64,000 nt of DNA from Lineus longissimus (Eukaryota > Nemertea > Pilidiophora > Heteronemertea > Lineidae). The position numbers and the translations under genes were made by a program. Where the stretch lies: assembly GCF_910592395.1 (NCBI RefSeq), contig NC_088312.1, positions 10,106,001 to 10,170,000 of the forward strand, written 5' to 3'. This document shows positions 8,501 to 51,471 of the stretch, piece after piece. Every line of letters begins with the position of its first letter. Position 1 is the first letter of the stretch. The notes below the pieces were generated by a model. The model saw only the letters and a program-made list of their open reading frames with translations, ran no database searches and had not been told where the DNA came from.

Positions 8501-11500
8501 ATAAAGATGAAGGAAACCCTTAGATTTTGTTTTGGAAAGTATCATTTTATACTTCACTGATAAATTGGCCAGTACCACTGCAATGAAAACCTGCATATGT
8601 AAAGACTGTATGTACATGATGAACCTGGATGCATTGGCCGCGAACTGACTAATGTCAACCGTTTCTTTTGTCCAGGAACCTAATTGGAGAGCAACCCTCC
8701 TTCTGCCGCATGCATATTTCACCGGCCCCTCCTGCCTGTACTTCTGGTACAACAACAACAGTCCGCAGGTCTCTCAACTTTACGTGGAGACGAGGCTGGA
8801 CGATGACACGAGGAAGACGGTCTTCACAGTGGAAGAGAATACCGGGGACACGTGGCTGATGGCGGGAGTTCAGCTTACCATTAAAGAACGATTTAGAGTG
8901 AGTTTAAAACATTTATTCAGAGTTTTCAGCTTTTTAGTCATACATGTACAGTAATTCGATTTATTCAAGATGAAATGTGCGAAGGGAAACATACGATCCA
9001 AGTGCAGAAGGGATACACTTTATCCCGGGGATGGAAGATGTGCGCAGAAATAATAGTTGGGTTTATGTTAACCTACTCTAGGCAAATTTCACACGACTAC
9101 ATTATTTACACTTTGGTTGACGCTGATCGTTATATATCAAGTAAAGATTTACCATTAACATCATTTCGACGATAAGATGCAAAAATACTTAGTATAAATC
9201 TAAGCTCACTCAGTTCCGAGCATCAATTTTGCAGGTTGCATTTATGGGGGTTCGTGGTTCTGGACATTTGGGAGATTTAGCAATTGATGACATATCGCTT
9301 GCATCTGGTGCCTGTACGAAAGGTAAGGACTACTGCAGAAACACTACCGAAGCCATAGTACAGAACGATGTATCATGTAGCTTCTTTGATAGCAATAAGG
9401 CCTGTAACACCCAAGAATATACCCCCAAGAGGAGTCGTTTTAAATCCTGAGTGTGTGCTTCTTGTTTATTGACTAAAAAACATCTAAATATTCGGATTTC
9501 TTCATAAGGTGTTGAAACGTTGTTTTGCCTGTCAGTGTCACGAAACCTACCTGTTTTTTATGACCCGAGACCTTAATACGCCGTGCTCTTACAAGACACG
9601 GTATTTTAAGTACCAACAGATGCGCACCATGTAGACGTAGAGGTTTTAAAGGCTTACAGGTTTTTCTAAAGCTAAAACCATTTTTTTAAATAGGAGTGTA
9701 CCCAACCGCTTTGCTATGACCCAAGACCATTACTTTTTTCAGTGGACTTCACAGTGTCTTGTGATTTCGAGAAAAGCATAGAAGACTGCGGCTTAGAACA
9801 GATCCAGGAGGATGACTATGACTGGGAGATCAACACTGGGCCGACCACGACTTCTGGGACAGGTCCCGCGGGCGATCACACCACGGGAAGTGGACATTAT
9901 GCTTATATTGATGCCAGTGGAAAGGTAAAAAATGTCAACGAATACAACAAAACCTGACCTGCTTTGGTAAAAGCAGACAAAGGGAGAAAAGGCGAAATTA
10001 AAAGAGATGAACTTCTTCTTTTCTTTCGGGAGACCGTCAATCGACCCCCTATATAGCTTCTGTTTTGTCCTCGAGTCTTATTATCTAAGAATGTCGATCA
10101 TCACACGACAAAGTTTAGTCATCATGATGGTCCTGCTCCTATAGATTACCTTGGGCATATTTTATCAGTGACTTACGTTGTGATATGTAAGAAATCATTG
10201 AAAGAGAAAATATTACACAAATTACCGCCACTGGAATTATTGCTATGCAAATCGCCCTCGCTGAATCCTTTCCGTCGATGATATCAATGATGGTTGATTC
10301 AGAATCCGAAAACCAGTTAAAATTTACACCAATTAAAATGACAAAGACAAAACCTGATAAAATAAGAGTCAAGCTAGATAGAAATATTGATAAGAAGTAA
10401 ACAGTTCTTATCTTTTTGTTAAAGTCTCCAATTTCGGGTGTGTACGTTTTGATATTACCACTAGGGGACTTCCATTTGTATGGACAAATAGTGTTAAGGT
10501 AGAGAGCTGATGCATCAAGAACTAAAAATGACTTTCGCTCGTAAAAACCACGGCATGAGTGCCAAAATACAATACCGTAAATTATTACGAAAAGAAAAAA
10601 AGAAGAGAAATCGTAAACCCGCCAAAGATTATGTTCAACAGGGGTGTCTAACTTCAACATTCCGGCAACATATTGAGGAATTTGCTGGAACAATATGCTA
10701 CACAGACAACTTAAAGGCCAAAAAGGATAAAGAATGAAAACACGCTCTGCTTTTATGATCCAAAGTTGGAGACTATCCAAGCACAATATGGTACAGATTA
10801 TCGGGTAGAACCCGTTGGCAAATAATCTGAATACCCTAGTGTCACCGAAGATAGATTCGCTGCCTTCGTCGCTTATTCTATTTAATACCAATAAACTGAA
10901 CACGTTGATTGCCAACAAAGTCATGAAACAAACTTGTCGACAGCGCAGAGATACGTAGAATCTTTCTTTAGCTTTTAGCTCCTTCAAAAGCCGTCTGCTT
11001 TCCAAGTAGGATCTGTCTGCTTCCGACATGACGTCATCCCCTTCCAGAAAGAGATTGCAAAGTGAACGGTTCAGGCCTCGGCACTCTACTTCCCGTAGTA
11101 TCCTGATCACGTGGAACGTGATATCCTGTATCGACCACTTGATGCCTCTCGTGTGATCTTGATGGGCAATGTCCAAGAAAGTGACCTTGATTGGGTAGGA
11201 TGGTAGGATGCCGTCGCCGTAAGGATCTTTGATGTCGGCCTCATCACGAAGAAGCTGCAAGAAGGAGGGAAACGTGCGTTTGCAAATGTAGCTAAAGCCG
11301 AGAAGAAAAATGAATTTTCTTAAGCGTACGACAAAGAAGCGGTTTTGGTCGCAGGCTGGACAAACTACTTGTATGTGAGAGAGCACAAGCGCAGGTGTTG
11401 TCGCTGCGACGCTCGACATTCTTACCTTAATGATACGATAGACGGCGCCCTTTATTTCATCGTCTTCAGTGATTTCCCGAAGTAAGTCCTGTTCGGTGTC

Positions 11501-14500
11501 CACAAAGCAAATCTTCCAGTAGTCATGGGCAGCAACGTAGTGACACTTGAAGCGTCCTTCCCTGTCCAAGTCTATTGCCAAAGGGGTCAGTACGTGCTCA
11601 ATGCGTTCATCAGCAGCCCTCAGACCTAAGGTCAAGTCTATCTTTATGGTTCGTTCTTTATCATCCTTGTATGATATCTTAACTGCTGGGCCTGCTTTCT
11701 TGATTTCAAAGTCGTCAATGATTTGCTGCAGTAATTCCCTAACGACATTTAGAAACCTATCCTGGATTGATGAGGCCATTATCTCCTGCTCATCTAAATG
11801 TAAGCTGAAGAACGAGTGACTCTCCCGGTTGGCTGCGCAAGGCTTCGTCCGAAGGAGACGTTTGGAAGCGACATATAAACCTTCGACAGTTAACAAGTAT
11901 TGGAAATCAAACTCATCAGCTCCGCCTACTTTGGTTCCCTCTGCCACACTTCCGCACAAACTCAGTTCACCGCCATGAAATGATTCAAATAGGGGTTCCC
12001 CTGCGGTCGCCCCATTTGCGAGATTCCACGAGATTATGTTCCGAATGGCCTTTACCGTTGGAGGGAGTTCCAAATCCTTTGGGACGCGAGTTGTTTCCTC
12101 CTGATGCAGCAGACATGGGTTGAGGTATAGTCTTGCAATAACACTGTCGAATGTAATATCGTTACAGTTGGTGATTATTGCAGGCTTTGTCGTGCGAACT
12201 CTACCTCGAAGCAGGGGTGTTCGCTCCTCTGTCCCGGGGTCAGATTCCGATGACATCTAGAAGATGAAATAACAGTTCCATGAGAAGACAGATCCAATTT
12301 CAATGGGCTGAACCATACTTCATTTGAAGTAAGGAAGAGTTTGACCTCACTGACCTTCGTGTGAGGTGAATCTGGGACTTAAGTTTGGTGTTCATACGCT
12401 GAAGAATTTTTAAGTGGCTACTGAGAGCGAACTTGTCGAACCCGCGCTCGGAAGGCGCAGTCTCATCGGAGATTCTTAACCTACCTTGCTGTCCAATGGT
12501 CCCGTCGATGAAAAGCATTACACTGCAGATTACATCCGTAGCAAATTTGATCTACTGCATTAGGCAAACATTTACAATTGGACAAGAACAATCAATAGAC
12601 TAGGTCATGCGCTGACCTGATTTAATTAGAAAAAAATTCTCTGCTTGTCGTATTCAACGCCTATAAGGCCCATACTCTGGATAACCTGACTCACGAAAAT
12701 AACCCGGAAGGGGGGCAATATCTAGATACCGTATAAACGCGATGAGCAAAAAAAGTCCCGGCCAGCTTATGATCAAATGCATTATTCCATTTTCGCCGCT
12801 TAGCATTAATACTACAGCACAAGATCGCCCACTTCATGACGACTCTCCTGAGAGTTAAAAAACACTAAATTTTCTTTTCAGACTGCCAACTTCAATGCTG
12901 CGATTGTCACACCGTCTGTGGTCTACCCACTGGCCAAGTCATGCATCAGGTTATGGTACCATTCCAAGGGGTCTAGCCTCTCCAAGCTTCAGGTCTTCAC
13001 GCTACACCCTGACGGTACCAACGACAATATCTGGGCGAGTGATGGAACCTCAAGTAATGAGTGGAGACCTGTCGAAGTCCAGGTCAACCGAACAGGACTA
13101 TTTCGGGTATGATGATGAGTCTTCGCGATGAACGCAGGTCTATGAGCGCCAATAGCCCAGAAAAGATATATAATTCAGTCACACTGCAGGAATTTGCAGG
13201 AATTTTCATGATTCTTGAACTCGTGAAAATCAAGGGCATTCCCATCATAACATATTCGTTATCTTTTAGAGTCAATCTACGCCAGTTTGTTGATCTGGCA
13301 AATCATCCCGGATGTTCGTACTGAATTGAATTGAATAAAGGCAGTTGGTGGGTGAGAACGAAAACTTAATACATATCAAAATTTTAACCATTATTACCAA
13401 CTACCTTACATTGCTTCTCTTGGCCCTGGAAAACAAATGGGTGCCAAGCTTGCCTGGGAAATAAACCTATGCGATGGAACAGAATCCCGTCCAGGGGGAG
13501 TGATACCTGAGTCGCCTAATCAGGAATAAGCTTGATGAGCCATTCGCTAGTTTTCTGTTTCTGTGCCAGTGACCCGGGTCCAGAGACCAGTATTGTAGAT
13601 TAACATCTCGAAAATCTTCTATATTCATTTCTTGTTCCAGTTTGCGATGATTGCGACAAGGGGTCAATCAAATGAAGGTGACATGGCAATCGATGACATC
13701 GAAATCAAACCTGGGAGATGTGCGTCCGGTGAGGAAAACATGTTATTGCGATGGACGAAGGACGGACTTCTCCAGTCTTTGTGTGTTAACGTCGGTGTAC
13801 ATCGACGCATTAAGGTTAATGAAGCCAAAGTTCGAAACGACTTGAGCGCGGAAAAGACTGTTTCGAATCTTTGTGTCCTCACAGAAGTGGTACGAGTTTG
13901 CCTCTCCATGACCATGATGGTGTCACACATATTGATCCCCGAGTACATAAATTGCGATAATGGAAAAAAATATACACCAGGTCACGCTGAGCGGCGCGCC
14001 ACATGTCTGTGTCGTTGTCACAACCAGCACAGCCATGGCCAACCACCACGACATGACACCCTGAAGATATCCTATCATATCCAATAAATAAGAATTCAGA
14101 TAAACTAATTTGGTCGACCTCCGCAATTTTTACTTTTAGTGGAAGTCTTCTCCTGCAACTTCAACGAAGGTACCTGCGGTATGGGGTTCACCTCAGATGG
14201 AAATGCTGACTGGATGTTGGCGAAAAAACCCTACTCCACCGACTATGGTCCGCTTGGTGGGGACAAGACTGGCACAGGCCATTATATCATTATGGTCGAG
14301 CAGACGAAAGGGGTGAGGCACAGCATTTTTTTCAAATTTTGAGTTCCGTCTCGTGATGAACAAGTATTTCAGGGTTGTATTCTTTCTGCGAACAGTCTTC
14401 TGATGACCTTCGACTTCGTCTCTGAAACAGACATGCCTTGTATCATGATAACAGAAGAAGAGGCCCAGTCCGAGCTGGTGGCATGGGGCAGTAACTGGGC

Positions 14501-15372
14501 CCTCTTCTTCTGTTTTCGTGATACAAGGCATGCGTTTCATTTTGAAATTCAAAAGGTATTCCCTGGTCATAGTAAACCTACAATCATTTAACCAAAACAG
14601 TCCGAACATATGGAGATGCCCAACGCCTGGAGGGTCAAGATTAGCACAGTGTGTCAGTGATCCGAGTGATAGATGTGAAGGCCTTTGACGATCAGATCAC
14701 CTGGTATCGCGGAAAATCCTCAACTACAGCCCTCATTTATTTTGACAGACTGTAGGTTCAGCCAAACTGCTTACGCCCTTCCTTGACCTAAAGGAGGAAT
14801 TCTGCCTGAAGGTCTACACTCAGATTTACGATGGGAGAGAGGCGACCATGAAGATATCTGCGCTTAAAAAGGATGGGACACAGCGTGGAGGAGAGTACAC
14901 CGTGGGACTAGGGTCCATTGTCCACTGGAAGGGATGGCTCCAGGTTCAGCTGGCGTTCTCCGCATCATACGAAGGGGAATTTAGGGTAAAGAGATTCCCC
15001 ATGGCCTGGTTGGTCTGTCGTTCTCATCAACGAATGTAAAGAGAATGTGTATTGTCCACTTCAAAGCATTTCTACTGATAAAAGCGTAGTGTTTGTGTGC
15101 ACTGAGAGACAAGCTGTGTTGATCACGAACCTTTGCCAAATGACCGAAAGTTTTTTATGGTGAATCTATGCCCATTGTTCTTATCTATCATGAAGTTAAA
15201 TGGTCTCTCTGAAGATATAACTCAAGTTTAAAGTCTGCTGCATCTTCTAATTCATCGATCCTTTCCATTTTTAATTAATTTTCAGCTTGTATTCGACCTT
15301 TCGAAGACGGCAAAAATCAGCCAAGGGTTCGCTTTTGATGATATCACAATACTGAGCGGAAAGTGCCCATAA
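1005..15372 (+). CDS. Astacin-EGF-CUB-EGF-MAM(x5) secreted metalloprotease, 3' part of gene
   Basis: Predicted secreted zinc endopeptidase of the astacin (M12A) family with adhesive domains. Exons read: 1005-1219, 1635-1829, 2326-2584, 3972-4078, 4236-4530, 4749-4859, 5025-5128, 5424-5556, 5908-6083, 6259-6505, 6774-6949, 7235-7468, 7838-7925, 8131-8309, 8676-8897, 9235-9322, 9743-9924, 12882-13106, 13641-13728, 14140-14312, 14749-14985, 15286-15372 (TAA). Every junction is GT-AG and all phases agree, giving about 1273 residues. Domain order is astacin, EGF-like, CUB, EGF, MAM1, a Thr/Pro-rich linker, then MAM2-MAM5. The protein ends GKCP-stop with no membrane segment after MAM5, so it is probably secreted, perhaps matrix-bound. 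The 5' end lies outside the window. The overall arrangement recalls tolloid/SpAN-like and meprin-like proteases, but five C-terminal MAMs match no family I can name exactly. The intron 9925-12881 holds an antisense gene. Confidence 0.88.
2641..3605. mobile_element. Degenerate repeat with AGCTCACCTC/GAGGTGAGCT ends, in an intron
   Basis: Starts with a short inverted repeat (AGCTCACCTC, 6-nt spacer, GAGGTGAGCT at about 2642-2667), followed by a (CGT)n tract near 2685-2730. A GAGGTGAGC motif recurs near 3580. Inside, two related blocks (about 2870-3000 and 3340-3465) share GTAGGTACT, GGTTTTTGATTTGACCT and AGGTCACAGAGGTCAAAGTTT. No transposase reading frame is present, so it is a non-autonomous or decayed element. 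Similar (CGT)n plus GAGGTGAGCT repeats are, from memory, common in marine invertebrate genomes. Confidence 0.5.
3703..3785 (+). repeat. tRNA-derived SINE head or tRNA-Leu/Ser-like relic
   Basis: Contains an A-box-like TGACCGAGTGGTTGAGGC (3708 onward) and a B-box-like GGTTCGAAC (3762 onward) at class II tRNA spacing. The acceptor and anticodon stems do not pair well, so it is not a functional tRNA. It is best read as a Pol III SINE head or tRNA pseudogene in an intron. Confidence 0.55.
3972..4530 (+). CDS. CUB domain (two exons)
   Basis: Exon 3972-4078 begins CGGIITLTGDG and contains TSPNYPG, the standard CUB opening. Exon 4236-4530 supplies the second half, with RYIKLEFPDFDL, the RFCGSDMG motif and a C-terminal FKAKVTAH strand. 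CUB domains in astacins mediate substrate and matrix contacts. It lies between two EGF-like modules, as in SpAN/tolloid-type enzymes. Confidence 0.85.
4749..4859 (+). CDS. EGF-like module (single exon)
   Basis: A 111-nt exon with phase-1 borders. It encodes CIKKYCHNGGTCEDGG and CRCKQGFVGASCEG, with six cysteines in EGF spacing. A phase 1-1 exon can be gained or skipped without frameshift. Confidence 0.88.
5025..6505 (+). CDS. MAM domain 1 and Thr/Pro-rich linker (four exons)
   Basis: Exons 5025-5128, 5424-5556, 5908-6083 and 6259-6505. MAM landmarks are NNFDDDSDNGGF, GDWRWTR, GAYLYIEASG, CLEFAYSM and SDLAIDEVNI. The last exon runs on into a Thr/Pro-rich, probably O-glycosylated linker (TIRPTTITIMRTTTTARK) before MAM2. 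This MAM uses one more exon than the four that follow. Confidence 0.82.
6774..7925 (+). CDS. MAM domain 2 (three exons)
   Basis: Exons 6774-6949, 7235-7468 and 7838-7925. Landmarks are SCDFENGFCDF, DFDWVRKEG, ACLEFWYNDFGF and GDLAIDDIRI, typical of MAM domains (adhesion and dimerisation modules in meprins and receptor tyrosine phosphatases). Intron phases are 1-0-0-1, repeated in MAM3-MAM5. Confidence 0.85.
8131..9322 (+). CDS. MAM domain 3 (three exons)
   Basis: Exons 8131-8309, 8676-8897 and 9235-9322. Landmarks are IKCDFEGDSCKYEQ, DFDWTLQTG, SCLYFWYNNNS and GDLAIDDISL. The last exon is 88 nt, identical in length to the last exons of MAM2 and MAM4. Confidence 0.85.
9743..13728 (+). CDS. 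MAM domain 4, split by the intron that hosts the nested gene
   Basis: Exons 9743-9924, 12882-13106 and 13641-13728. Landmarks are VSCDFEKSIEDCG, DYDWEINTG, SCIRLWYHSKG and GDMAIDDIEI. The first intron of this module (2957 bp) is far longer than the matching introns in the other MAM modules because it contains the antisense nucleotidyltransferase gene at 10139-12256. Confidence 0.82.
10139..12256 (-). CDS. Membrane-anchored Mab-21/cGAS-like nucleotidyltransferase, paralog A
   Basis: Two coding exons, 12256-11426 and 11254-10139, give 648 aa. The catalytic core has GS at 102-103, E115-F-D117 in GADEFDFQ and D207 in IKIDLTLGL: the three metal-binding acids of cGAS-like enzymes. YWKICFVDTEQDLL matches the cGAS stretch after the core, and S296-Y297 (PSYPIKVTFLD) corresponds to the SY pair that stacks the base in cGAS. 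No zinc-thumb cysteines are present. From about residue 384 there are about six hydrophobic helices (near 384-402, 424-445, 451-475, 492-512, 561-588, 610-632). An ExxxLL motif (ERTPLL) lies near residue 11. Likely a cyclic-nucleotide-producing cGAS-like receptor (cGLR) anchored in a membrane; ligand and product are unknown. It is antisense in a MAM-gene intron. A splice acceptor (TCTTCTAG) abuts the ATG, so the 5' UTR is spliced. An ITPRIP-like relative is less likely because ITPRIP membrane helices are N-terminal. Confidence 0.85.
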   Translation of the reverse strand: MSSESDPGTEERTPLLRGRVRTTKPAIITNCNDITFDSVIARLYLNPCLLHQEETTRVPKDLELPPTVKAIRNIISWNLANGATAGEPLFESFHGGELSLCGSVAEGTKVGGADEFDFQYLLTVEGLYVASKRLLRTKPCAANRESHSFFSLHLDEQEIMASSIQDRFLNVVRELLQQIIDDFEIKKAGPAVKISYKDDKERTIKIDLTLGLRAADERIEHVLTPLAIDLDREGRFKCHYVAAHDYWKICFVDTEQDLLREITEDDEIKGAVYRIIKVRMSSVAATTPALVLSHIQVVCPACDQNRFFVVRLRKFIFLLGFSYICKRTFPSFLQLLRDEADIKDPYGDGILPSYPIKVTFLDIAHQDHTRGIKWSIQDITFHVIRILREVECRGLNRSLCNLFLEGDDVMSEADRSYLESRRLLKELKAKERFYVSLRCRQVCFMTLLAINVFSLLVLNRISDEGSESIFGDTRVFRLFANGFYPIICTILCLDSLQLWIIKAERVFILYPFWPLSCLCSILFQQIPQYVAGMLKLDTPVEHNLWRVYDFSSFFLFVIIYGIVFWHSCRGFYERKSFLVLDASALYLNTICPYKWKSPSGNIKTYTPEIGDFNKKIRTVYFLSIFLSSLTLILSGFVFVILIGVNFNWFSDSESTIIDIIDGKDSARAICIAIIPVAVICVIFSLSMISYISQRKSLIKYAQGNL
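11255..11425 (-). other. Stop-free, in-frame 171-nt intron of paralog A (exitron-like)
   Basis: Read on the minus strand it begins GTAAGAATG and ends CTCCTTCTTGCAG, good donor and acceptor signals. It is 171 nt (57 codons) without a stop, so it hides inside one long reading frame. Paralog B joins RIIK directly to LLRDE across a 235-nt intron at the same site, which shows this segment is normally removed. Retention would insert 57 residues within the catalytic core. Confidence 0.85.
12257..12881. other. Upstream region of paralog A within the host intron
   Basis: On the minus strand this stretch should hold the 5' UTR intron, non-coding first exon and promoter of paralog A. On the plus strand it is the 3' end of the host intron, ending TCTTTTCAG at 12881. 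No coding exon was recognised. Confidence 0.4.
14140..15372 (+). CDS. MAM domain 5 and C-terminus (three exons)
   Basis: Exons 14140-14312, 14749-14985 and 15286-15372. Landmarks are FSCNFNEGTCG, ADWMLAKKP, GTGHYIIMVEQ and GFAFDDITILSGKCP followed by TAA. It is the most divergent of the five MAMs: the canonical CLEFWY block reads FCLKVYTQ. The protein ends directly after the domain. Confidence 0.8.
14425..14542. repeat. Long imperfect hairpin in the last MAM-domain region intron
   Basis: Left arm from about 14425 (GAAAC, ATGCCTTGTATCATGATAAC, AGAAGAAGAGGCCCAG) pairs with right arm 14495-14542 (CTGGGCCCTCTTCTTCTG, then CGTGATACAAGGCAT and GTTTC). The near-complete stem is over 40 bp with a loop of about 25 nt. 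Could be a small foldback element or a hairpin RNA. Confidence 0.7.
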
Positions 15373-15784
15373 ACGGAATGTTATAAGAGCGAAAGAGATA
15401 GATGAAAACGGAACGTATGAACAGCTATCCGCCACCGGGTCTGCCACCACCATCACCACCTAACGCTGTAATTCGAACGAATTGAATTCAGTTCCTTCAT
15501 TAGCCTGAAGATCTTTAGAAAACTGCACGAGATGCAGGTTTCATCTCCTGGGTGGAAACGAGTCCGCCGAAATGAGCTCACATTTACTATTTGTAGTGGG
15601 AAGGGCCTAGATGGCCGGTCTAGGTGGAGACCTACCCCGTATAGCTTTCGATCCTGCCTACAGTAGGTTTCATTAGCCCATCGTTGTACATAATCGTGAA
15701 AACATGTGCCGTTAGCTAATGTATCATAGAGCCGATCTATCCCTAATTGTATAGTCTTGTAAAATTGACTCATGAAGTATTACA

Positions 15785-15790
15785 AATAAA
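15785..15790 (+). terminator. AATAAA polyadenylation signal of the astacin/MAM gene
   Basis: Canonical hexamer about 410 nt after the TAA at 15370-15372, followed by T/G-rich sequence. It suggests a 3' UTR from 15373 to about 15810. Confidence 0.55.
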
Positions 15791-15810
15791 TGTATATTCC
15801 ATATATACTG

Positions 15811-16879
15811 TATAACAAAATTCACAATGTGTGTCTTCCTTAATGCTTCTTCGTGTTACGCCGTATAAATCTAGTTCTTTAACTAACCGCTGCCTTTCTT
15901 CAATGTTAGACTGGCGCCACTTGTACGGTCGACTATTTGACCCTCAAACACCTGCGTGGCGCTGCCCGCATTCTCCCGCGTTGAAAAATGCCGACACGAA
16001 AGCGAAAGCTGGCCGTCTATCGTCTGCGTGAACACGTAACTCACTGGATGTACTGTTCGGGTAAGTTGAAATGATTACTTTTAGATTGTTTTTAGATAGA
16101 GAAGCATTCAGATCAGATAAAATGTCCAACCCTGCCCATAAACTCGCTGCATGTAGTAAGAATAGAAACCACGTGTTGCCAAATCATTTAATGATGTTAG
16201 CAGTGTAGATCATATGGGTCATGTTTACTTAGTACGGACTCACAGTCATGCCGGTGTAGAAGTTTAAAATGTCCTAGGATAAAATGTCCGGGAACAAAGG
16301 ATTCTATTATGCGCTTCAATCTCTGAGCTATTGACGGTCAGGGTCTCTATAGAACCATATTGCAGAATACAATAGGGCCGGACACTTTTTCCAGGGGGGA
16401 CACTTTTTACTTTTACACCGGTGGTGAATTATTATAATTCGCGGACGTCTTGATGCATTCTGAACCATCGCAGTTAATCGGTCCATTACCCCCTCATACC
16501 ACTGATCACTTTAGTGGATACTGGCACTATGAACACCCTCATTTTGATTGATTGATGATATGTCCACAAATTATGGAATTCAAAAGCAACCTTGGTGGGA
16601 AATTATCAGTCAAACTCAACCAGAGTCAGCATAGCATGAGGACCACCTTTTTGATTGAAATGCAAAGTACAGTAGAACCTCCCTTAGCAGACATCTCTCT
16701 ATTAAGGACAACCTCTCTATTGAGGACACTCGTTTCGGTCCCAAAATGGCAGTTTCCATTCAATCTGACCTCTCTAATCAGGACACCTCTCTATTAAGGA
16801 CAGCACTTGTCAATCCCGAGGGTGTCCTTTATAGAGAGGGTCTACTGTATAAGAGAAAAGACATGATTATATAATATAA
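15811..16879. other. Intergenic region between convergent genes
   Basis: Lies between the poly(A) signals of the astacin/MAM gene (+) and the KIAA2012 homologue (-). No coding frame recognised. It contains one CAGTAGAACCTC MITE copy at 16668-16849. Confidence 0.5.
16668..16849 (+). mobile_element. CAGTAGAACCTC-type MITE, copy 1
   Basis: Begins TACAGTAGAACCTCCCTTAG and ends GAGAGGGTCTACTGTA, giving terminal inverted repeats. The interior repeats CTCTCTATTAAGGACA in both orientations and has GGTCCCAAAATGGCAGTTTCC in the middle. Non-coding, about 182 bp. Similar copies are at 17691, 18505 and 36830. Confidence 0.7.
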
Positions 16880-16885
16880 TTTATT
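16880..16885 (-). terminator. Candidate AATAAA poly(A) signal of the KIAA2012 homologue
   Basis: TTTATT on the plus strand, 268 nt beyond the stop codon at 17153-17155. It is the nearest canonical hexamer I saw. Confidence 0.4.
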
Positions 16886-17152
16886 AGACAAATTACTCAA
16901 TTTAACAACAAAATTATACATCTGATCAAGTAACAACAACGTCTCTTAAACTTTAAGAGTTTCTACTGTACCTATTGTACCATGTTACAAGAGTCTAAAC
17001 ATTTCCTGGGTGCTTATGATTAGGTGCTTAACAGGATTTTTTTCTGTGAATTACCAAACTTTGAAAAAGGGGTGTAATTTTGGAGGAAATCCAGGCACAT
17101 AGCAGTAATAGTTCCTAATGATTGTTATCAAAAATTGATTCAATTTCAATCA

Positions 17153-20100
17153 TCATGATTTAGGTGGAGCAGATTTTGGCTTTGGCTTTCTTCGGAATGC
17201 ACCCTTCTTTTTCTTGCTATCTTCTTCACCGCCTATAAGCCTGTGAAATAAATGTATCATGCCTCATCATTTGTATTAACAGTTACATTATTGTACAACA
17301 CAATTGCCCGAAAACCACATTATGACTTGTTCCCAATTAACTGTGATAATTGTAGGGTCTGGCAAAAAAGATTTTCGAAAATGTTGATAACCCCAGAAGA
17401 CTTATCACTTACAAATGACAACGTAGAGTATCTTACCTTTCGTATGTATCCCTTGGCCAGAGCACATAGTAAGAAAACGTCCATGGTCTGGTCATTCCCT
17501 GAGAGGTTCGGACACCCTGAAGATGGTTCCTCGCTTCAAGATTCTTTTCACGTCTCTTGAGCAACATTTCTCTACGCTTATCAAACTCCTGCCTCATTTG
17601 TTCTCGAGCTTCTTCCTCCATTTTTTTCAACTGAAACAATATGCGGAGCTATAATTGCTGTACAATCAAGTCAAAAGCAGAAATAGTAATTATAGTAGAA
17701 CCTCTCTATTAAGGACGCCCTTGGGACTGACAAGTGCTGTCCTTAATAGAGAGGTGTCCTGATAAGAGAGGTCAAATTGAATGGAAACAACCAATTTTGG
17801 ACCAAAGCTAGTGTCCGTAATAGAGAGGTTGTCCTTAGTAGGGAGGTGTCCACTAAAGGAGGTTCCACAGTACATGACTTCCAGCTGATCTGCCATTTTG
17901 TCATTGCCAGTCAGATGAAATGTGGTGGCCATTTCAGATGCCAGCGAGAACCCACCTTACAAATAGCCACCAAGTTTCAGTGAATGGACATCACAAGTAA
18001 TACATACACTACTGGTGGTGGGACAATTTTCATGCAGTCAGTCCCCTATTGCCTAAGAAACATCATTAATAGGCTGTACAGAGTTTAAGAACACAGAACA
18101 ATACAAACCCTGAATTTCGTTTCAAAGAGAAGATCCACAGTCCAAAGATATTGAGGGGTTATTGAAACGCAGTACAGTCACAAGGCAACAAATAGCATTA
18201 ATGTTTGTGATACATATAGGTCTTCCAAACATGATAGAACTGATAATCTGAATATTTTTGTCAACAACCCCAGATAACATGTTTAAAGTAAACTGGAGCT
18301 TTATAAAAGGATATTTACAATGTAGGGTAATTAAAGCTGAGAATTTGAGGTATTGATTTCACTCAGTAAGGTCAAGTTTACTCCCATAGATATGCTAATC
18401 ACATTTGATCTCACACTTGATAACCCACATCAAAATGAGCCACCTAGGTCTAACCTCTGTGGTGACTAGCAATGACGGTCACCCTTGAGCCAGGCTGGAA
18501 AACATACAATCGAACCTCCCTTAGCGGACACCTCTCTATTAAGGACAACCTCTCTGTTAAGGTCACTAGTTTTGGTGCCAACTTGGTTATTTCCATTCAA
18601 TTTGACCTCTCTTAACAGGATACCTCTTGTCATTCCTTAATTGAGAGGTTCTACTGTATATACATGTAGGACCAAGATGAATAGTAAAGAAATTTGGATT
18701 CAATATTGGTAACTGTAAAACGATCATGGTGAATTTATAGGGGTCGGAAGGTTGGCGATCTAACCTGTATGAGCCTTTGTCTCTCTTCCTCTCTCTTTCT
18801 GTTTTCTTCATCTTCTATCTTTTGTCTTTCTTCATCTGCAATTCTCTGCTCTTCGAGGAATGCTTGCCTGAAAATATTGAATCGTACCACAATAAAGTCC
18901 AGTGACTGTTCTATCTTTGTTATGCTTAAACAGCATAAACCGTGCACTGCCCATAGACAGGAGCTTGGTGGTCTCCAGGTGAATTGGGAACTGGTATGAT
19001 TTGGTGAGCCTCGTGCAAGAATGAATAGTGCCAGTGCACTGTGAGATGGAAGAGCCACCTATCATCAACTCTAAGTAACTTAATCTGGCCCTCCTGGCTC
19101 TTGTCCATAGTCTCCCTTTAAAGGAGGAACACACTGAATGCACAAAATCTCCGAAACTCCTAACCTCTTTTTGTCTTCCTCTGCTGCTAATCTCTCCGCT
19201 TCAACCATCAGTTTCCTCCTCTTCCTTTCTGCCTCGTCTCTCTCCCATCTCAACCTGGACAAGGCTTCTTCCTCAGCTTGTGCCTCAATCGCAGCAATCC
19301 GTGCCTCCTCTTCTTCAGCCGCTATCCTGCCAAGGCGTTCCTCCTCCTACAAGTTAAATATCAATGATCTATATCAAAGCCCAAGTCCACCTGAGTTTCG
19401 TATCTACTGGTAGAGTATTGAAGTCACACACACAACAGGATCTCATCAGCTCATCACAGGGGATCATCAAGGAGTAGCAGAAGTCATAATAGGCCAGTAC
19501 TACATAAATACAGAGTTCCTGACTGTGAAGGATGGTTCTGGGTTGCGTAAATTTTGGGCACTGCATTGCCTCCTCAACAATGCAACATCTCTAGAGATGT
19601 CCTGTACTGTACTAAAATGCCCATCCGGCAATAATTCGTTACACCTCCTCCTTTGAATCTATCCTTATCTAATACATGTAGTTGGATGGTGCAAAATAAA
19701 TTGACTATGTTACAAGTGCGCTCATCTGTACTTGACCTCAAAGACATACCTCTAATCTCTCCATCTCATCATCCTCCTCCGCCTCCCGTCTCAATCTCTC
19801 CTCCTCCTGTAACTGCCTCTGTGCCTCGACCCCTCTAATCTTCGCCAGCATTTCCATCTCCTTCTTCTTGGCTCGCTCCATCATCTCCCACTCCTGTTTA
19901 CGTTTGCTTGCCGCCTCCTGCCGTCTTCGCTCCTGCTCCTGCTTGCGTCGTATTTCACGCTCCTCCCTTGCAGATTTTCTAGCAGCGATCAGCGCGATTT
20001 TGGCATCTTCTTCAAGTTGTTCAGCGTCCTGGGCCTCGTCCGCTAAAGCTGCCATTTGTTCTTCTATCTCTGCAGTCTTTTTTGCTGCTTCTTCCAATTC

Positions 20101-24600: not shown

Positions 24601-27600
24601 GTGCTTCAGATTCGCTCTCTTCTAATAGAATTAAAGAAGAGAAAACTGAATAATCTTTTGATAGAATTATGCAGTTGGGAAATAATGAAGATAACTTTAA
24701 TAGATTGAACCATTAAAAGAGAACAAAGTGGAACATTATCAGTCCAATCCATCGGACTAGAATCCTTCGTTGCTGTGATGTGCAAAACATTTTACTTTCA
24801 TCAGATTGCCAAGCAGACTTTTATCGCTCATTACAGCAACAATCGTGCCACATTCCTGAAATTAGACTCACTTGTCTGTGGTGAGCTTTGAAAGTTTTTT
24901 GAATACACTCACCCTGTGTTCTTGTGTCTGGTCTGGATCCTGCCAGTGAGTCGACAGTGTGAGGCAACATCTGAACACTGTCATCTATCACTATGTTATC
25001 AAGATCCTGCGATTCAGCAAGAGTATTATCAAACGAGAATGAAGCAGCACGAGAAAATAAGGTCCCTGGAAAGAATAATGTCTAATGAGTGCCGTTTCAA
25101 CAGAAAAAAAAATAAATTTATGAACGTTGCTTAATTTTCTGGGAAAACCTTGGAGGTGGTAGGTGCTGATGTTTCAACTGGACGACTCTGACCACCCAAT
25201 CACTCCGACAGCCCAATTGGAGCGCTGTTTTCTTATGAAATGGAGTATAAAGCCAATTGTCTGGTTATTGAAGTCAGTACCAACCTGCAAGTATTGGGGA
25301 GAAAACCAATAATCATTTGTTTGTGGAGAGTGGCCTCTCACACCGGAAAATAAACCACAAGGAGAGAGTTCATCTGAACTTCAGATATCATTCAAAGAGT
25401 CAAATAGATAACTTACCAGTGTACTGTGGCATCAATGGTTGAGTAGCACCTTCATCAAAGTCTTCTTCTTCAAAGTCGTCATACTCCTCATAGTCATCAT
25501 AGTCTTCATCTTCATAATCTCCATCATCATAGTCACCGTCATCATCATAAATGTCGTCCTCATCCAAAATATCAACATCACCATTTAAAGACAAATCGCT
25601 GAATTCGGACAAAGATGAATTTTCAGCACCATTTACATGACAAAAAATAAATACCACACGATAGACATCACATTCACATTGGATCACAAAGTCTGCATAA
25701 ATGACACACACAACTGAAGACTGATTCTACATTGTACTACACACCAGTGACCTCTGTGAGTCTGATTCAATAGATTACCTGCAGCGTCTCCCCTAAACCA
25801 TGATAATATCCACAAAACTTAAATCAAACAAACTGCTTACCCCTCCTTCCCAATCTGTGTTTGCACATCAAGTTCAAATTCACCTTCAAATGGTATCTCC
25901 TCCTGTGGTGTTATGGTAACTGGGCATTTGTCTGAAATTATAGTTTATAATGATAGTGACAACAACTACAATCTCCAGGAAGCTGGTTCGAAAATGTTAA
26001 CTTTTCATGCTATCCATGCACCGTCTCGACTGAATTTATTATATTGTGGTACTCAAAACAGGTTTTAGGTATGATGAAATAACCATCACCCTGGATTATT
26101 GTGTACAGATCACAGCAATAATCCCACCTCAAACCTACCCTTTACGACAACAGTTGGTAATGGTTTCTGAGTATGTCTTGTCTCATGGGGGTCACTCCAT
26201 TTCAAAGACTTTGCTTCATCATCTGCAAAGGAGTAGACAAGGCATTTTCAAATGAAGTGATGTGTCAAGCAAGAGAAATCACCAAGTATAACACTGAATA
26301 ACAGACAAAGCTTACCTGATGGTAGATCAATATCCTGCTCTTCAAGAACAGATGATGAGATACTGACACCATCCTCCTCCGGCTTGACAACAATGCCGCG
26401 GTCGCCGGGCACTTCATCTGGATTGATCACATGATCAGTAATAACACTGTCTGCTTGCCGGATCACGACGCTAGAAATTCCACTCGGGTCGGCATCCTGC
26501 GATGCTATGCTTGATCTTTTACTTGGAACAGATGTTGGACAAGAATCAGCTGGTTTTTCATCACCACGATTTCTGACAACTTCTGCGTGTAGTTTTTCAT
26601 CTCCTAGTTTATCACTACTGCCACTAGGAGACAGCACTGTCTGTTGAGTATCTTCTCCAAAATCATCTTCAACTCCCTCCAGAATACTTTCAGCCAAAGA
26701 ATCCTTTGTAAAGACATTTTTATCGTCTTCCTCTCGACCTTGCCTTTGTCTTCTCACGTGACCTTGAGTTTGACCTTTCACTTGGCCTTCACCTTCAGGG
26801 CCTTCACCTTCAGGGCCTTGACCTTCTGGGCCTTTGCCTTCAGCTTCTTTTTGAGCTGCCCTTTTCTGTCGTCGAAGCAGCTGCTGTTTGCGATGTTCCA
26901 ACTTAACGTTAGGTTCATCACCGGTCTGATTCGTCGTCTGGCGCCCCCTCACTTGACCCGATCCAACTCTAGTTTGTGAAGGAGGTCGTCTCCGTCGTCT
27001 GGGTCGTGCACTGACCGCACGAGTCAGGCAAGGTTCAACAAATGCATCATCTTAAATGAAGAGAAGACGATATGATGAAGTTATATAGCATGGTTATAGC
27101 ATGGAAATGGACTTCATTGATGATCTTGATAAAATAGCCACAAAACAATAAACAAGAAGATATAGCTGCATCTTCATTGTTAACCCAAAGATAATTTGGG
27201 CCATATTGATTATATATAGAGCTGAAGAAATGTCCTTTTTTGCTGTAGTGAATTTTACAGATACTTTTTCTGCCTCGAAAGGTTGAGCCTTGAGAGATAG
27301 GTCTAGGTCTACTTACCATAGGAGTATCTTGTGCTAACAGGGGATGGTGTGTCGACGAGGCTTGCCGATTTCAGAGAGGCTGTCAGTCTGTCAGTCGATA
27401 ACACTTTGAAAGAGCGTCTGCTTGCCACTGAACTGGTGGGTCTGGAAGATGAAAAAGATTCTTGTAAACCAGATGATCCAATGTCATATTGGAAAACAGA
27501 GACTGAGAATTGTTATAAACTAAGTTATGCCACATTTGTCTTCCAATTTTTCTGACACGATCATCTGAAACAAAAAAAAGTTGTGGTTCTGAAATCAAAA

Positions 27601-30600
27601 AGCCCTCTGTGTAGAAATGAAGTATATATTGATCCCACCATTTTTAAACATCTATAACATAATTGTAAATATAATTGTAAACATGATTGTAAATATGTGC
27701 GTAACAAACATTACAACCCAGAAAAAAGCAAATTGCATGTGACCACACCCACATCTATCAGTCACTGGTGCACATGACCAATAGGGTGACCTGCTGGGCC
27801 GTAAATGTACTTGACTTGCGAATACAATTTGTCCAAGGGTTGAATATCATTGGTCCGTATCTGTAAGAATATTTTTCCTGCATGACCAATATGTGTAAGG
27901 AAGGAAATATGTTTTAAACATATTTTATCAGTCAATTGAACCACTTAAGATATCTTATATCTTCATGACAATCACATCATTCCTGACACAGAAAACCAAA
28001 ATATCCGGCCACAACAAGAGTAGAGGACACATCAGCTCTTATCTAAAAATTTCCAATTTAGCAATGTGATATGCATTTGACAGAGTGGGAGACTATCACG
28101 AGGGGGAATTCGATGCATGGATTTCAGATCCAAATCCTCTTCTATAAATCTTGGACAACTTTGCTGACAACTTCAGTCTTCGGATCGTGTTTATGCAACA
28201 CCGCAAGGAAAAAGAGTCTATCGTTACAATTCCTCCAACTCGTTTGTCCATTCTTTTCTCAAGGTGAGTTTCTTATAAATCTTTCAGCTTTTTTCTTTCA
28301 TTCACAGCAACATGGGATATATGTTTATCTGCGATAAGCGATAATATGATTGTCACTTTGCTGCAGGAGAGGTTGTCCGTGCCATCTAGAAAATAGGCCT
28401 GCTCCTCGTCCTCTTTTTAATAGTCTAATCCACAGTATAGAAAAAATCTCAGAGATCACCATTAAAATGCACTAACACAGTGATGGTCTATACCTGACGG
28501 ATGAATATTAAAGTACACCTGTTTTTTTTCAGATGCCAATTGAGCATGAAGCCAAAGTTAGGGTACAAGGTGAAAATGCTCCCCTCTTACCAATACACAG
28601 AAGGAAGTCGCTCAAGCCAACATCAGTTTGCGAGGACCTCACTTTCGATTGCATTATTGCCAGACTTTATCTGAACCCATGTCTACTGCATCAGGAACAA
28701 ACAAGTCGTGTTCCAAAAGAATCTGCGCTCCCAAGAAAGGTCCAGGCCATAAAGGATTTAATAGTAAAGAATCTGGAAAATGGTACTGACCAAGGACAAA
28801 GTGACCTAAACTCATTTGCCGGTGGCAAGCTGAGTTTGTGCGGGAGTGTTGCAGAGGGAACCAAAGTCTGTGGAGCTGATGAGTTTGACTTCCAATACTT
28901 AATGTCAGTTGACGGATTAGAAGCCACAAAAAAACGCTTGATTCGCACAAAACCGCGATCTGCAAATCACGAAAGTTGTTCATTTTTCAGCTTAAGGGTG
29001 CACGATAGTGACGGCACCACAGAAGAGCTCAACCCAGCCACAATTCATGATAGGTTCCTGCACAGGATAAAACAATTGCTGTCCAACACCCTTGAAGACT
29101 TCAAAATGAAGAAAGCTGGTCCTGCAGTAAAGATTTGGTACGAGGACGATGACGGACGCACAATAAAGATAGACCTGACCTTGGGTCTGAAAGCCGATAA
29201 CAAAAACATTGCGCACTTGACACCATTGGCAAAAAGCCTGGAGAGTGAAGGACGCTTCAAGTGTCACTATGTGGCTGCCCATGACTACTGGAAGATTTGC
29301 TTTGTGGACACCGAACAGACTTTACTACGGGAAATAATTGAGGCTGATGAAATAAAGGGATCTGTCTACAGGATTATTAAGGTGAGTGGAATGCCTTCCA
29401 TCCATGCTTCGTGGCTGTTCAAGTTGGTTGAAGAGACTAGGCAGTGAATCGGTGGTCACCCAGGTCACCTGACCAATGCAACAAAGCAGTGTATCGATGG
29501 TAGATGACCGCTCTGTTGACAAAGACGCATTTTAATGCGTCTTTGGATGGTCAGTCAAAAGGTTAAAACCGTGAATCCGTGACCAGAGGATATCAACCCA
29601 ATATTTTATCTTTCAGCTTCTTCGAGATGAGTCTGACATCAAAGATCCTTATGGCGATGGCATCCTCCCTTCCTACCCCATCAAAGTCACCTTCCTCGAC
29701 ATTGCCTACCAAGATCACACCAGAGGCATCACATGGTCCATACAAGACGTCACCTTCCATGTGATCAGGATACTCCGTGAAGTCGAGAGACGTGGCCTCA
29801 GCCACTCCCTCTGCAGTCTATTCTTGGATGGTGACGATGTCATGTCGGAAGCAGATAGATCATACCTGGAGAGCAGACGACTTCTCAAGGAGTTGAAAGC
29901 AAAGGCACGATTCAACGTATCCCAACGCCGCAAACGCGTTTGTTTCATGACTCTCTTGATGGCCAGCATGCTTTCTTATTTACTATTGTCAGTCTTGGTA
30001 CAACGAAAGTATAGAAAGCTTTTGAAATACGCAGGATTTTTCCCACTGTTCTTTGCCCTGTTCTGCTTGGAAAGCATCCAACTTTTGCTGCAGAAATCTG
30101 AACGTATGTATAAACTGTACCCTTTCTGGCCTCTCAGCTGTCTGTTGTGTGTGATATTTCAGCACCTTCCTTCCTATGTCGGTGGTATGCTGGATAGTTC
30201 CAGTAGGCTGTACAAGGTTCTTTGGCTATCCTACGATTCAGCCTCATTTCTCCTGGGACTCATCTTATATGTGGTAGTATTCTATCACTCGTGTTACGGT
30301 TTGTACAAAAAGAAGTCATTTTTCATTTTGGATGCTTCGGCGCTATACCTTAACGTAATTTTCCCATACAAATGGATATCGCCAAGTGGCAAAAGCATAC
30401 CCTACATACCAGAAATAGGTATCTTTAACTTGATGATGAAACTCATCTATATGCTGTCAATACTTTTGTCTAGCACCACAGTACTTCTAGGGATTATGCT
30501 CTTCAGTGTTTTGATTTCCGTGAGAATAAATTTGATTTCACGATCAAATCCGACAGTCACCGCAATAATTGGCCAGGAGGGATCAGTTCTTGAAATCAGC

Positions 30601-33600
30601 CTGATGTTAATCCCAGCAGGAGTTGGAATGGTGATTTATGTTTTATCTCTCATGTCCCTTTTTTACCAAAGCAGAATACTCAAAAATTACACTGATAAGC
30701 TTTCAGGCAATTCTCTCTGATTGAACCTGGCCATGAGTCTGAAAAGATGTTATCACTATGTAATCACTGGCCCTCAGAGATGGCATGCACCAATGTATAT
30801 GTTATCAAATCTATCTCAGAGCCTGCCAAGGGCACCAATGTAACTATTTACTCAGACCAAGACCTCAGAGATGGCAGAAATCAATGTTACCATTCTGAAA
30901 TCAGAGAGATACAATCTCGATGTGATATTAACATCAACACTTTATGCCATCAATATCTCCACTAATTTCAATGCGGCTTGCAGCATATTGCCCCCAAAGT
31001 TATTGCAGACCTATCTTACCTGCTTGCACGGAACGGTTCGGTCAACTTGTCACTGTTGGCAGTCAAGATGTCTGGAGATTTGCTGGTATCGTCATTAATG
31101 GTTGAAACAGAAACATTATCATCAAACCGGACACCTGGACCAACTGAAGACGGTCTTGCGGAACTGGAAAAGAGAGAATTCAATTTTTATGGAAAACAAA
31201 ACACACCTCAACGTTTTCGACCTTGTCATAAAAACCTCAAGATTTTTTAAAGTCCTAAACGACTTTGTTGTGCCAAACACCAGTAGCTAATGGGTTAAAT
31301 ATATCTGCTAGTTGGCTCAGAGAACATTTTTTAATAAAGCCCAAGGGTAAATTGTAATCTACTTTAGTCACAAATATTTGTTTATTTATGTTATTAATTA
31401 GAGCCTCAAGCTGTTATTTTAAATAATGAACCAGGCATTGGAACTTTATTGAGACAGAAAACGTTTTGACAACCACCCACATTTCAGGATTGAAAATTTT
31501 TTATTTTGTTTCATTTATAAATCTTTATAATTGCAATTATTTGAAATATAAAACAGGGAACAGTAGTCTGTTACGATACTTCTTTAAATCTCTTTCAGAG
31601 CTGCAATAGTGTCTTTTCGAAATGAGGTCGTCTGTCACTGGCCGAATTGAAAGCATTTTATTTGAGCTTTAACTCACTGCCACAATGCCAAAAGCTTAAT
31701 TCCAGCAAAGTTATTCCTTGAAAGTTAGAAATCATATTAGGAAGCAAGCTTGATTATTTATACCTTAGTGTTTTAAAACCTCAGGCAAATTGTAAAGGTT
31801 TTATTAATAAATGTAGCTTACTTCCCCTTCAGCTAGTTGTCTGATAAGGAAACAATAAAGCTTACTTCCTACCACTTAAAGAAGTGGGTGGACTTTCCCT
31901 TCAAAATGTTTGTTCTTCCCCTGTTTATTCAGGTTATTTTTCTCCGGGAGGGTTTTAACTTAAACATCTTTAAAAGATGTAAGTTTTAACTCAAACATCT
32001 TTTGATGAATAAGTTCCTCTGGTTTGGCTATGGTTTCTCATCCCCCGCTTCACAACCGTTGGTTAATAAACACAACCTGTTGGACTTGCAACAGCAAATC
32101 ACACAAACGAATCATTATCAAAGTCACCAGAGCGTGACGATATCGAAAAATAATCAATTTATCCTTTATGTCCCCAAAAGCATATAGATGGAACGACGCT
32201 ATATCATATTTGAGGTTTTCCAGAATATTGGAGTTACTGAAGCATACATGTAGATATAAAGCACATTGATGAGCGTCTTAGAAATACTCCGTGTAATATT
32301 GACCATTAGGCAAATCACGGTATCGTTCAGAATGATATATGGGTGAAAGGTGTCAAATGAGTTGAAAGATTGAGGAGACGCATGAGAGCATATTTGATTC
32401 ATAAAAGAAGTGCCAAATATGTACAATATCAAAAGTGAATGGACATAGATATTGTGTGTCATGAAAACGGGCCAAAGGAAACTATGTCATTATGATATTT
32501 CTTTGTAAAACATCTCTTCAACATTTGACGGCTAAGAAAATATGCTACCAGCCATTGGGATTCATTAATTTTGTCTTCAATCAATCAATCAATACGGAGT
32601 CTTGTATAGCGCCAGATCCACCTTTGAAATGGTGCTCAAGGCGCTGTTAAAAAGTTCACCAATGTCTACAAAAATAGGTGTCCCTTTAGTTTTTGAAAAT
32701 GTCCACAGACTCTGAGTCCCTGATGTTCCTTGGAAGTTCATTCCAGAGTCTGGGTGCACTGACACAAAAGGCCTTGTCACAAACCACAACGTTTGGATAC
32801 AGGCACGGCCAACAGCAATTGTTTAGCTGAAATGAATCTGGAGGACATTTGTTGACATTTTTAAGGGTTGACAATAGGTACAGCCATTTTGGCTAGAACT
32901 TGAAATCCTAAAGCAATTGGAACTCCTTCAAAACATAGCGAATGCTCATTTTAAGGGCTGGAGTCTGTCCTTTGCTTTCCAGAGAACAGCCTCCAGGGTT
33001 TTAAGTGAGCATTCAATTCATTTGGAAAGAGTTTTAATTGCTTTAGGATTTGGAGGTCTAGACAAAATGGCGGTACCTGTGGTCAACGCTTAATGCGTGC
33101 AATGACCACTTTTGCTGCAATTTCAATCACTTGTTTGTGGGGTGCTTATGACGGCTAGATGTCCTGTGATTACCGCCGATGGTTCTCACATTTAATGAAT
33201 TCCAAGTGGATTAGTTAAGATATGCAAAATCCAATCAACACACAATAGATAGATCACAACACTTTGTTACACTACAACATCACATACCGATATCTGTTTG
33301 CATTACAAGAAATAATATTGAGATAAAAATTAATAGTATTAAAATATAATTGAGTGGTAGGATAATACAAACAGCTTTTGCGACCCATTAAGTGGTAGAA
33401 ATTTTGTCCGTGTCAGATAGCTCATATCAGAACGATAGAACTGAAGTAACTCATTATTGTTAATTAGTGCATAACCCGATATTATGAACTGATATATTGA
33501 CAGTATTACATAACTGATACATAATGTAATGGATTATAAATCAGCGCCATTAATGATCTATAAATATCAATTCACAGAAAAATCAATCAGACAAGACTGA

Positions 33601-42963: not shown

Positions 42964-43644
42964 TTTGTACTGTCATGTGACGTAACATATCAGGAAGAGG
43001 TAATAAGATTAAATTCTCTTCTATCTTCATAGAAACTTAGCTAAAATCAATGATAAATACATCATGATAAAACATACTTATTTGATCTAATTTGATGATA
43101 AAAGGTAGGAAATATCTGGGAAAATCATGTTGCAAATCGTTACGTCGGCTGAGGAACTTTTACACAATGGTGGGAAATTCGAAGTTTTATTTTTCTGACC
43201 AAATATCCGGTTGCTTCAAGTGATCACTGGATTAAAATAACCAAATTATTATTCAGAAACTAGTTAATGGTATTGTATAAGGTTTAAATACGCAGTTGAT
43301 GTATAAACCCATGGAATTTTGGTGCAACTCCGCTCTCTGTATTCCTTCCGACAATAGGTGTATAGGGAAGTGTGTGAAAATCAGAATCGATTTTCGGACA
43401 ATGTACAAAGATTTTAGACATTACAGCAAAAGGGACTTTGAATTTGACCTTAAATTTCCTTTATGAGAAACACAGTGGCTTGTCTTGATGGCTGGCAGCC
43501 ATTTAGAATTTTTTCCCTGCTATGTGATTAAGAAAGATGATTTACTGATTTTTTAAAAAGGCTCTCTTTTCCAGGTTTCTATTCAAATGTGACTACTTTT
43601 AAGTTTAAAGTCAAACTCCAATGGTAGAATAAAGGAAAGGAAAT
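42957..43644. promoter_or_regulatory. Bidirectional promoter region PAAF1/GTF2E1
   Basis: The start codons of PAAF1 (42963, -) and GTF2E1 (43645, +) are 681 bp apart and divergent. At 42978-42985 there is a CRE-like TGACGTAA. The PAAF1 start sits in AAAATGGCGGC, a match to the YY1 consensus often found at start codons. No TATA box could be assigned with confidence. Confidence 0.5.
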
Positions 43645-51281: not shown

Positions 51282-51471
51282 CGTGACGTCAAAATAACGC
51301 ATGCGCCCATCTGTGCAGAGCGCGTGTAGAGAATGTGTTTATACATTGTATACACATTGCGCTCAGTCAGTGGATGGTATTCATGAAGCATGGATCGTCG
51401 CTGTGGATGGATGTTAGGATTATAAGCGAAATGTAGCAGATTCTGGTGTGTTTTCTCAGTATATTTAGGAG
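51282..51471 (+). promoter_or_regulatory. Promoter and 5' UTR of the SAM-domain gene
   Basis: A perfect CRE (TGACGTCA, 51284-51291) is followed closely by an NRF1-like CGCATGCGCCC at 51298. The local CpG density is higher than in the flanks. The ATG is 180 bp downstream at 51472 with no intervening acceptor needed. Confidence 0.5.

Follow-up and report, generated by a model that had tools for sequence, protein, structure and literature searches.

The stretch of DNA analyzed in this study (hereafter the window) covers 64,000 nucleotides of the nemertean Lineus longissimus (RefSeq assembly GCF_910592395.1, contig NC_088312.1, positions 10,106,001 to 10,170,000 of the forward strand), and carries two genes, herein designated A and B, that had been predicted from the letters alone to form a pair of membrane-anchored cGAS-like nucleotidyltransferases at 10139..30720. 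Gene A is LOC135487991 (P0001; 648 amino acids) and gene B is LOC135488364 (P0002; 650 amino acids), and the spliced translations of both are identical to the public NCBI models, in full agreement with the coordinates and protein lengths of the original prediction. The two genes are in divergent orientation with 16 kb between them, and the proteins are 59% identical. The gene structures, in positions of the window, are as follows.

10139..12256, minus strand: gene A, whole, two exons
11426..12256, minus strand: gene A exon 1, encoding residues 1-277 (the N-terminal part and the bulk of the nucleotidyltransferase core)
11255..11425, minus strand: gene A intron, 171 nucleotides, GTAAGA..TTGCAG, length divisible by three and free of stop codons
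10139..11254, minus strand: gene A exon 2 with the stop codon; its residues 278-648 comprise the helical lobe, the S-Y pair and the hydrophobic tail
28533..30720, plus strand: gene B, whole, two exons
28533..29381, plus strand: gene B exon 1, residues 1-283
29382..29616, plus strand: gene B intron, 235 nucleotides, GTGAGT..TTTCAG, with in-frame stop codons
29617..30720, plus strand: gene B exon 2, residues 284-650 and stop codon

By sequence and predicted structure, A and B each have a Mab-21/cGAS core (residues about 45-373 of A), in which the metal-binding triad and the S-Y pair are complete, and after it some 270 residues of hydrophobic tail. The predicted active-site residues of both proteins are located as follows.

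11948..11953, minus strand: gene A G102-S103, the catalytic G-S following C101 (sequence and profile alignment)
11906..11914, minus strand: gene A E115-F116-D117, metal-binding E-x-D (sequence and profile alignment)
11636..11638, minus strand: gene A D207, third acidic residue (sequence and profile alignment)
11195..11200, minus strand: gene A S296-Y297, opposite the cGAS S-Y pair (profile alignment)
28842..28847, plus strand: gene B G104-S105
28881..28889, plus strand: gene B E117-F118-D119
29172..29174, plus strand: gene B D214, third acidic residue
29671..29676, plus strand: gene B S302-Y303

The alignments thus confirm that G-S, E-x-D, the third D and the S-Y pair are present, and the zinc thumb absent, in both A and B as had been claimed. 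All seven of these sites are invariant in the seven paralogues of the species found in protein databases (P0001-P0007), an outcome with a probability of about 1e-5 if invariant positions fell randomly within the core, and the core is therefore not a chance match. Against the curated cut-off of 24.1 bits for the Pfam Mab-21 family (PF03281), A scored 31.1-31.3 bits and B 30.0-32.1 bits; P0006 and P0007 are also above the cut-off, and P0003, P0004 and P0005 are under it at 18.5, 13.9 and 19.7 bits, respectively. Comparison of the family profile with PDB reached cGAS, with an alignment spanning the nucleotidyltransferase core and the C-terminal helix bundle, and matched the cGAS-like receptor (cGLR) 1 chain 8gjy_A with an E value of 2.2e-7; a single-sequence phmmer search of PDB gave no match. 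The predicted structure of A matches the cGLR/CD-NTase fold over residues 45-373, in line with the Mab-21/cGAS-like core that had been claimed, and the identity to cGAS is 17-20% in the structural alignments listed.

No H..CC element of the zinc-thumb type was found in the seven cores, and in the profile alignments shown no more than one family cysteine stands opposite the C-C..C-C-x-x-x-C of cGAS. In addition, the family has K (in P0005, R) opposite the R, and either C or S opposite the S, of the cGAS sequence W-R-L-S-F. These two positions, together with the T preceding G-S, read the guanine base in cGAS, and the replacements of T by C, R by K or R, and S by C or S suggest that the base preference is likely to differ from that giving 2'3'-cyclic GMP-AMP (cGAMP).

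The tail was located by hydropathy in both proteins, and in A also by helices in a low-confidence model.

10142..10960, minus strand: gene A hydrophobic tail, residues 376-648
29911..30717, plus strand: gene B hydrophobic tail, residues 382-650

On the Goldman-Engelman-Steitz (GES) scale six candidate membrane segments were obtained for each protein (in A, residues 384-402, 426-444, 449-467, 493-511, 567-585 and 612-630), and on the Kyte-Doolittle scale six for A and five for B, all of them within residues 384-632 and none in the core, which upholds the roughly six segments originally proposed for a tail of this length. The grand average of hydropathy is +0.67 and +0.74 for the tails of A and B, as against -0.32 and -0.43 for the cores. 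Past the core, the GES segments of P0001-P0007 number 6, 6, 6, 8, 8, 4 and 5, with one more within a core insertion of P0007, and the additional family member L011, described below, has 6. In all eight of these proteins a hydrophobic stretch lies past the conserved core end S-Y-L-E-S-R-R, while the longest open reading frames of 18 other Mab-21 loci of this genome hold 0-2 such segments. The count of K and R is higher on the core side of the predicted membrane than on the far side in six of the seven database members (17/7, 18/9, 13/3, 12/10, 10/3 and 9/5). The C-terminal hydrophobic domain is probably polytopic in the membrane.

The tails change faster than the cores, and no tail residue is invariant among the seven. 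As profiles, those of A and B match those of P0003-P0005 (one hhalign comparison gave E 8e-8 at a probability of 92, and the reversed control E 0.45), with z values of 0.8 to 5.9 for single pairs. The tails of P0006 and P0007 gave no profile match to the others and are borderline locally (P0001/P0006 z 2.5, with 7 of 200 shuffles as high; P0003/P0007 z 2.2, with 8 of 200), so that one fusion event and two are not separable. No Pfam family above its cut-off and no PADLOC model matched the tail, and its profile matched solved structures at the chance level (best 5v8k_A, E 0.38). Near the N terminus, both proteins carry an acidic dileucine of the form [DE]xxxL[LI], ERTPLL in A (12209-12226, minus strand) and ENAPLL in B (28572-28589, plus strand), within surroundings that have otherwise diverged; its presence in both has a chance probability of 0.0095. 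Within the first 40 residues, P0003 has the match DDDSLI, and none was found in P0004-P0007 or L011. The motif is suggestive of a putative endolysosomal sorting signal.

The original prediction spoke of a pair; both genes are indeed real, but they are two of at least eight tailed paralogues (P0001-P0007 and L011). Across 5.8 billion sequences, three protein searches yielded Lineus proteins only, 6, 6 and 7 in number including A and B; the first two scored the best 8000 candidates by shared words and the third, which had no cap, 1842 candidates, and as such searches reach only relatives sharing exact 5-residue words, the restriction to Lineus applies to these searches. The viral collection and the bacterial and archaeal collection yielded no relative, and none of the seven members matched the PADLOC defence-system models, which include the CD-NTases of cyclic oligonucleotide-based antiphage signalling systems (CBASS), at E values up to 1. 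A phage, viral or bacterial origin was ruled out on these grounds.

A profile scan of the genome gave at least 25 Mab-21 places above the Pfam cut-off, a lower bound because gene B was missed and no place could be assigned to P0003-P0005. Of the 24 places outside the window, 21 were examined (L001-L008 and L010-L022), leaving out three on contig C17; L006 corresponds to P0007 and L018 to P0006. The eighth member, L011 (contig C10, position 13472360), is composed of two exons and carries C-G-S, E-F-D, K-V-D and S-Y-P, followed by six hydrophobic segments. The members are spread over several contigs of the 391-Mb assembly. A midpoint-rooted tree of 24 rows, all from Lineus (the seven database proteins, L011 and 16 other loci), separates the eight tailed proteins from the other rows by a branch supported at 100/100, and groups 12 ankyrin-type rows (95/96) and four short rows (90/83). 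L013 and L020, missed by the motif pattern, were left out of the tree, and L001 and L002, missed likewise, were kept; L001 and L007 have long branches, and L014 is 34% filled. The tailed proteins are a real, conserved and apparently lineage-specific family of cGAS-like nucleotidyltransferases.

Large frames combining ankyrin repeats with a Mab-21/cGAS-like core were read at L002, L004, L005, L008, L010, L012, L014, L015, L016, L017, L019 and L022, the ankyrin label being checked with Pfam for three of the 12 (L002, L004 and L005) and given by reading for the other nine, and no other Mab-21 type was as numerous at the places read in this species. Five Mab-21 places lie within about 0.6 Mb on contig C17 (285028-911831), including the near-identical L017 and L022 (end branches 0.013 and 0.036), which suggests that this cluster may be a recent local amplification.

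The intron position is common to several of the tailed members. A donor following ..IK was read in A, B, L011, L018 (P0006) and L006 (P0007), and the acceptor side ahead of LRD.. in A, B, L011 and L018 (P0006); the positions in L011, L018 and L006 were read by eye from frame ends, and P0003-P0005 were not included. From these common positions, the gene structure of the tailed family is probably older than the duplications. The idea of gene A as a retrocopy or recent insertion into the repeated-domain gene that surrounds it was ruled out by the same intron position. Between A and B, the core is 73% and the tail 46% identical, and the ratio of nonsynonymous to synonymous substitution rates (dN/dS) is 0.18. 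The helical lobe (residues 231-375 of A) is 89% identical, as compared with 62% for the nucleotidyltransferase lobe, and its dS is 0.9-1.1, lower than the 1.9 of the nucleotidyltransferase lobe; this combination of high identity and low dS may reflect an old gene conversion.

Gene A is nested in antisense orientation within an intron of a plus-strand gene of repeated domains (flanking exon matches at 9742-9930 and 12885-13106), whose repeated exons in the window at 5430-14318 we presume to encode MAM domains. Gene B is located outside this stretch. Retention of the gene A intron would insert 57 in-frame residues within the helical lobe. The neighbours at 43633-44346 and 51469-51945, a TFIIE alpha subunit and a SAM-domain exon, are ordinary.

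With respect to the trigger, the core isoelectric point (pI) is 5.41 for A, 6.65 for B, 5.86 for P0003, 7.27 for P0004, 6.31 for P0005, 8.53 for P0006, 7.75 for P0007 and 5.63 for L011, and is set here against published values for proteins, so that the comparison is approximate. According to the survey of animal cGLRs (PMC9980059), the receptors sensing double-stranded DNA or RNA have a pI above 8.5 and a basic ligand surface, and ligands other than nucleic acids have been proposed for acidic cGLRs. A and B fall short of this high-pI trait, and long nucleic acid is thus disfavoured as their trigger, an argument that fails for P0006. A nucleic-acid sensor was set aside as the first choice on the core pI and the absent zinc thumb, and the RNA/DNA sensing originally entertained is unsupported.

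As for a receptor of the product, one place in the genome, at 2036599-2036703 of contig C11 (L009:1501-1605), scores above the cut-off of the Pfam model of the STING ligand-binding domain. Two frames downstream of this exon resemble further STING exons by eye; neither matched Pfam, and the one tried against PDB gave chance matches only (E at least 0.63). An upstream frame likewise had no Pfam match and a PDB match at chance (E 0.98). A STING-like gene, evidenced by one exon, is likely present in L. longissimus.

We favour the interpretation, to which we assign a probability of about one half, that A and B are membrane-anchored cGAS-like nucleotidyltransferases making a nucleotide messenger, more likely in response to a trigger other than nucleic acid. 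The tail would form about six membrane helices and keep the core on the cytosolic face, as the K/R excess on the core side in six of seven members would predict; the core would bind two metal ions and nucleoside triphosphates, and the trigger would align the active site for synthesis of a cyclic or linear messenger, to be read by the worm STING or another receptor. Given the acidic cores of A and B, the lack of a zinc thumb and the fast-changing tail, the trigger would more likely be an event involving a protein, a lipid or the membrane, perceived at the membrane or across it, than long DNA or RNA. More tentatively, the membrane domain itself could be the receptor for a membrane-borne or luminal cue other than nucleic acid, switching a cytosolic synthase that feeds STING; we consider this extended form doubtful.

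Several of our results weigh against the favoured interpretation. The published cGLR motif, h[QT]GS [X8-20] [DE]h[DE]h [X50-90] h[DE]h (PMC9980059), is matched strictly by none of the seven members, since Cys replaces Q/T ahead of G-S in all seven and six have a last spacer, that before the third Asp, longer than 90, despite the metal-binding triad itself being intact in every one. The AlphaFold residues 281-300, which hold the S-Y pair, have mean predicted local distance difference test (pLDDT) values of only 48 and 59. In the tail, AlphaFold gives long helices at low confidence (10-residue pLDDT means 36-79), so that their number and order are provisional. Shuffled whole proteins have on average 2.4 segments for A and 2.55 for B, with maxima of 6 and 7, and for shuffles of the tail alone the means are 3.8 (A) and 4.5 (B); as shuffling can match the segment count at this lax threshold, the membrane case rests on clustering and composition. 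The K/R bias is reversed in P0005 (10/12) and near-even in P0004 (12/10), and N-glycosylation sequons, three on the far side and three on the core side, are uninformative as a sign of topology. Furthermore, a low core pI is not common to all members, as P0004 (7.27), P0007 (7.75) and P0006 (8.53) indicate.

The same replacement of Q/T by Cys and the failure of the strict motif in all seven would also fit a catalytically silent Mab-21 scaffold in the membrane, the pocket of which binds a nucleotide or nothing while protein contacts do the work, and we hold this to be a genuine, if minor, possibility. The higher conservation of the helical lobe than of the nucleotidyltransferase lobe between A and B points in the same direction, as does the precedent that related Mab-21 proteins can be immune scaffolds, which also counts against the enzymatic interpretation: the shrimp Mab21 proteins bind IKK-epsilon, with neither nucleic-acid sensing nor cGAMP synthesis detected (PMC12928593). 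The shrimp proteins are, however, described as missing the essential residues (PMC12928593), whereas the triad and S-Y are invariant in seven diverged paralogues and also present in L011. An active enzyme with a non-immune role, for instance in development or membrane homeostasis, and with a product possibly unread by STING, appears rather unlikely. The function of Mab21L1-related proteins in developmental patterning (PMC9980059) and the presence of one STING-like place as against at least 25 Mab-21 places agree with such a role, but lineage-specific duplication, with no relative outside Lineus in the word-limited searches, would fit immune families better.

Bacterial CBASS operons with membrane effectors provide the model for a sensor and effector in one chain, in which the tail would be a channel or pore that the product of the attached core gates. 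Such an arrangement would account for the joining of a nucleotide synthase fold and a hydrophobic domain of several segments in one polypeptide, yet we judge it improbable: the tail lacks a Pfam, PADLOC or solved-structure match beyond chance, itself a weak test, and it has no invariant residue, which would be uncommon in a pore whose gate is fixed. Hardly credible, finally, is an artefact, be it a mis-spliced model, a pseudogene, contamination or a chance open frame. The boundaries of gene A could be mistaken, as its intron has no stop codon and a length divisible by three, but the public models equal our own splicing for both genes, donors stand at the same place in five members, the dN/dS is 0.18, and members occur on several contigs of the assembly with no relative in the bacterial, archaeal or viral collections searched.

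In comparison with the known systems, the tailed family differs from human and mouse cGAS by the lack of a zinc thumb, the acidic core in A and B, the Cys before G-S, and the C-terminal hydrophobic tail of about 270 residues. With the animal cGLRs (PMC9980059) it has in common the nucleotidyltransferase core and helical lobe, the metal triad and the predicted structural match, and differs in the membrane tail and in the failure of the strict motif by C for Q/T. As described in the survey, 87% of animal cGLRs have no further domain, the fusions named are with ankyrin, tetratricopeptide repeat or death domains or between multiple cGLRs, an "Other" class makes up less than 0.5%, and no membrane tail is mentioned on any cGLR in the part available (PMC9980059). 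Transmembrane parts are mentioned for STING and not for cGLRs in the available parts of PMC10732462 and of a choanoflagellate paper (PMC12424679), and "membrane-bound" cGAS in a review means membrane association (PMC10855445). Among the titles and abstract beginnings listed by full-text searches of open-access papers, no animal cGLR with a polytopic tail was found, in accord with the earlier claim that the build is unlike that of most described animal cGLRs. The family suggests that in animals a cGAS-type enzyme fold has been joined to a membrane domain, an architecture unmentioned in the literature examined.

Within Lineus, the ankyrin-Mab-21 genes (for example L002, L004 and L005) have the core in common with the tailed family, and the active-site start C-G-S-x-x-E-G-T-K is also found in L004, L008 and L012, but in these genes the ankyrin repeats precede the core in one long frame, no hydrophobic tail follows, and they form a separate group in the tree. 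A Mab-21-fold protein bound to a membrane is not without likeness elsewhere, as in MID49/MID51. These are held in the mitochondrial outer membrane by a single N-terminal anchor and have no known synthase activity; like ITPRIP, they work by protein contacts and are not known to be catalytically active. MID49 and MID51 are named as Mab-21-type paralogues in PMC10732462, and the DANGER/ITPRIP proteins are Mab-21 domain proteins with a predicted signal peptide or transmembrane region, located N-terminally in microdomain I (PMC1784063), in contrast to the about six segments past the core of the tailed family. What acidic cGLRs sense remains a question in the cGLR survey (PMC9980059), for which this family, with at least eight members, an intact active-site triad, the acidic cores of A and B and a multi-segment hydrophobic tail, offers a test case of cGAS-like enzymes with membrane-borne, non-nucleic-acid triggers. 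If the membrane domain is itself the receptor, A and B would represent an innate immune receptor cyclase, with a layout analogous to that of the receptor adenylyl and guanylyl cyclases.

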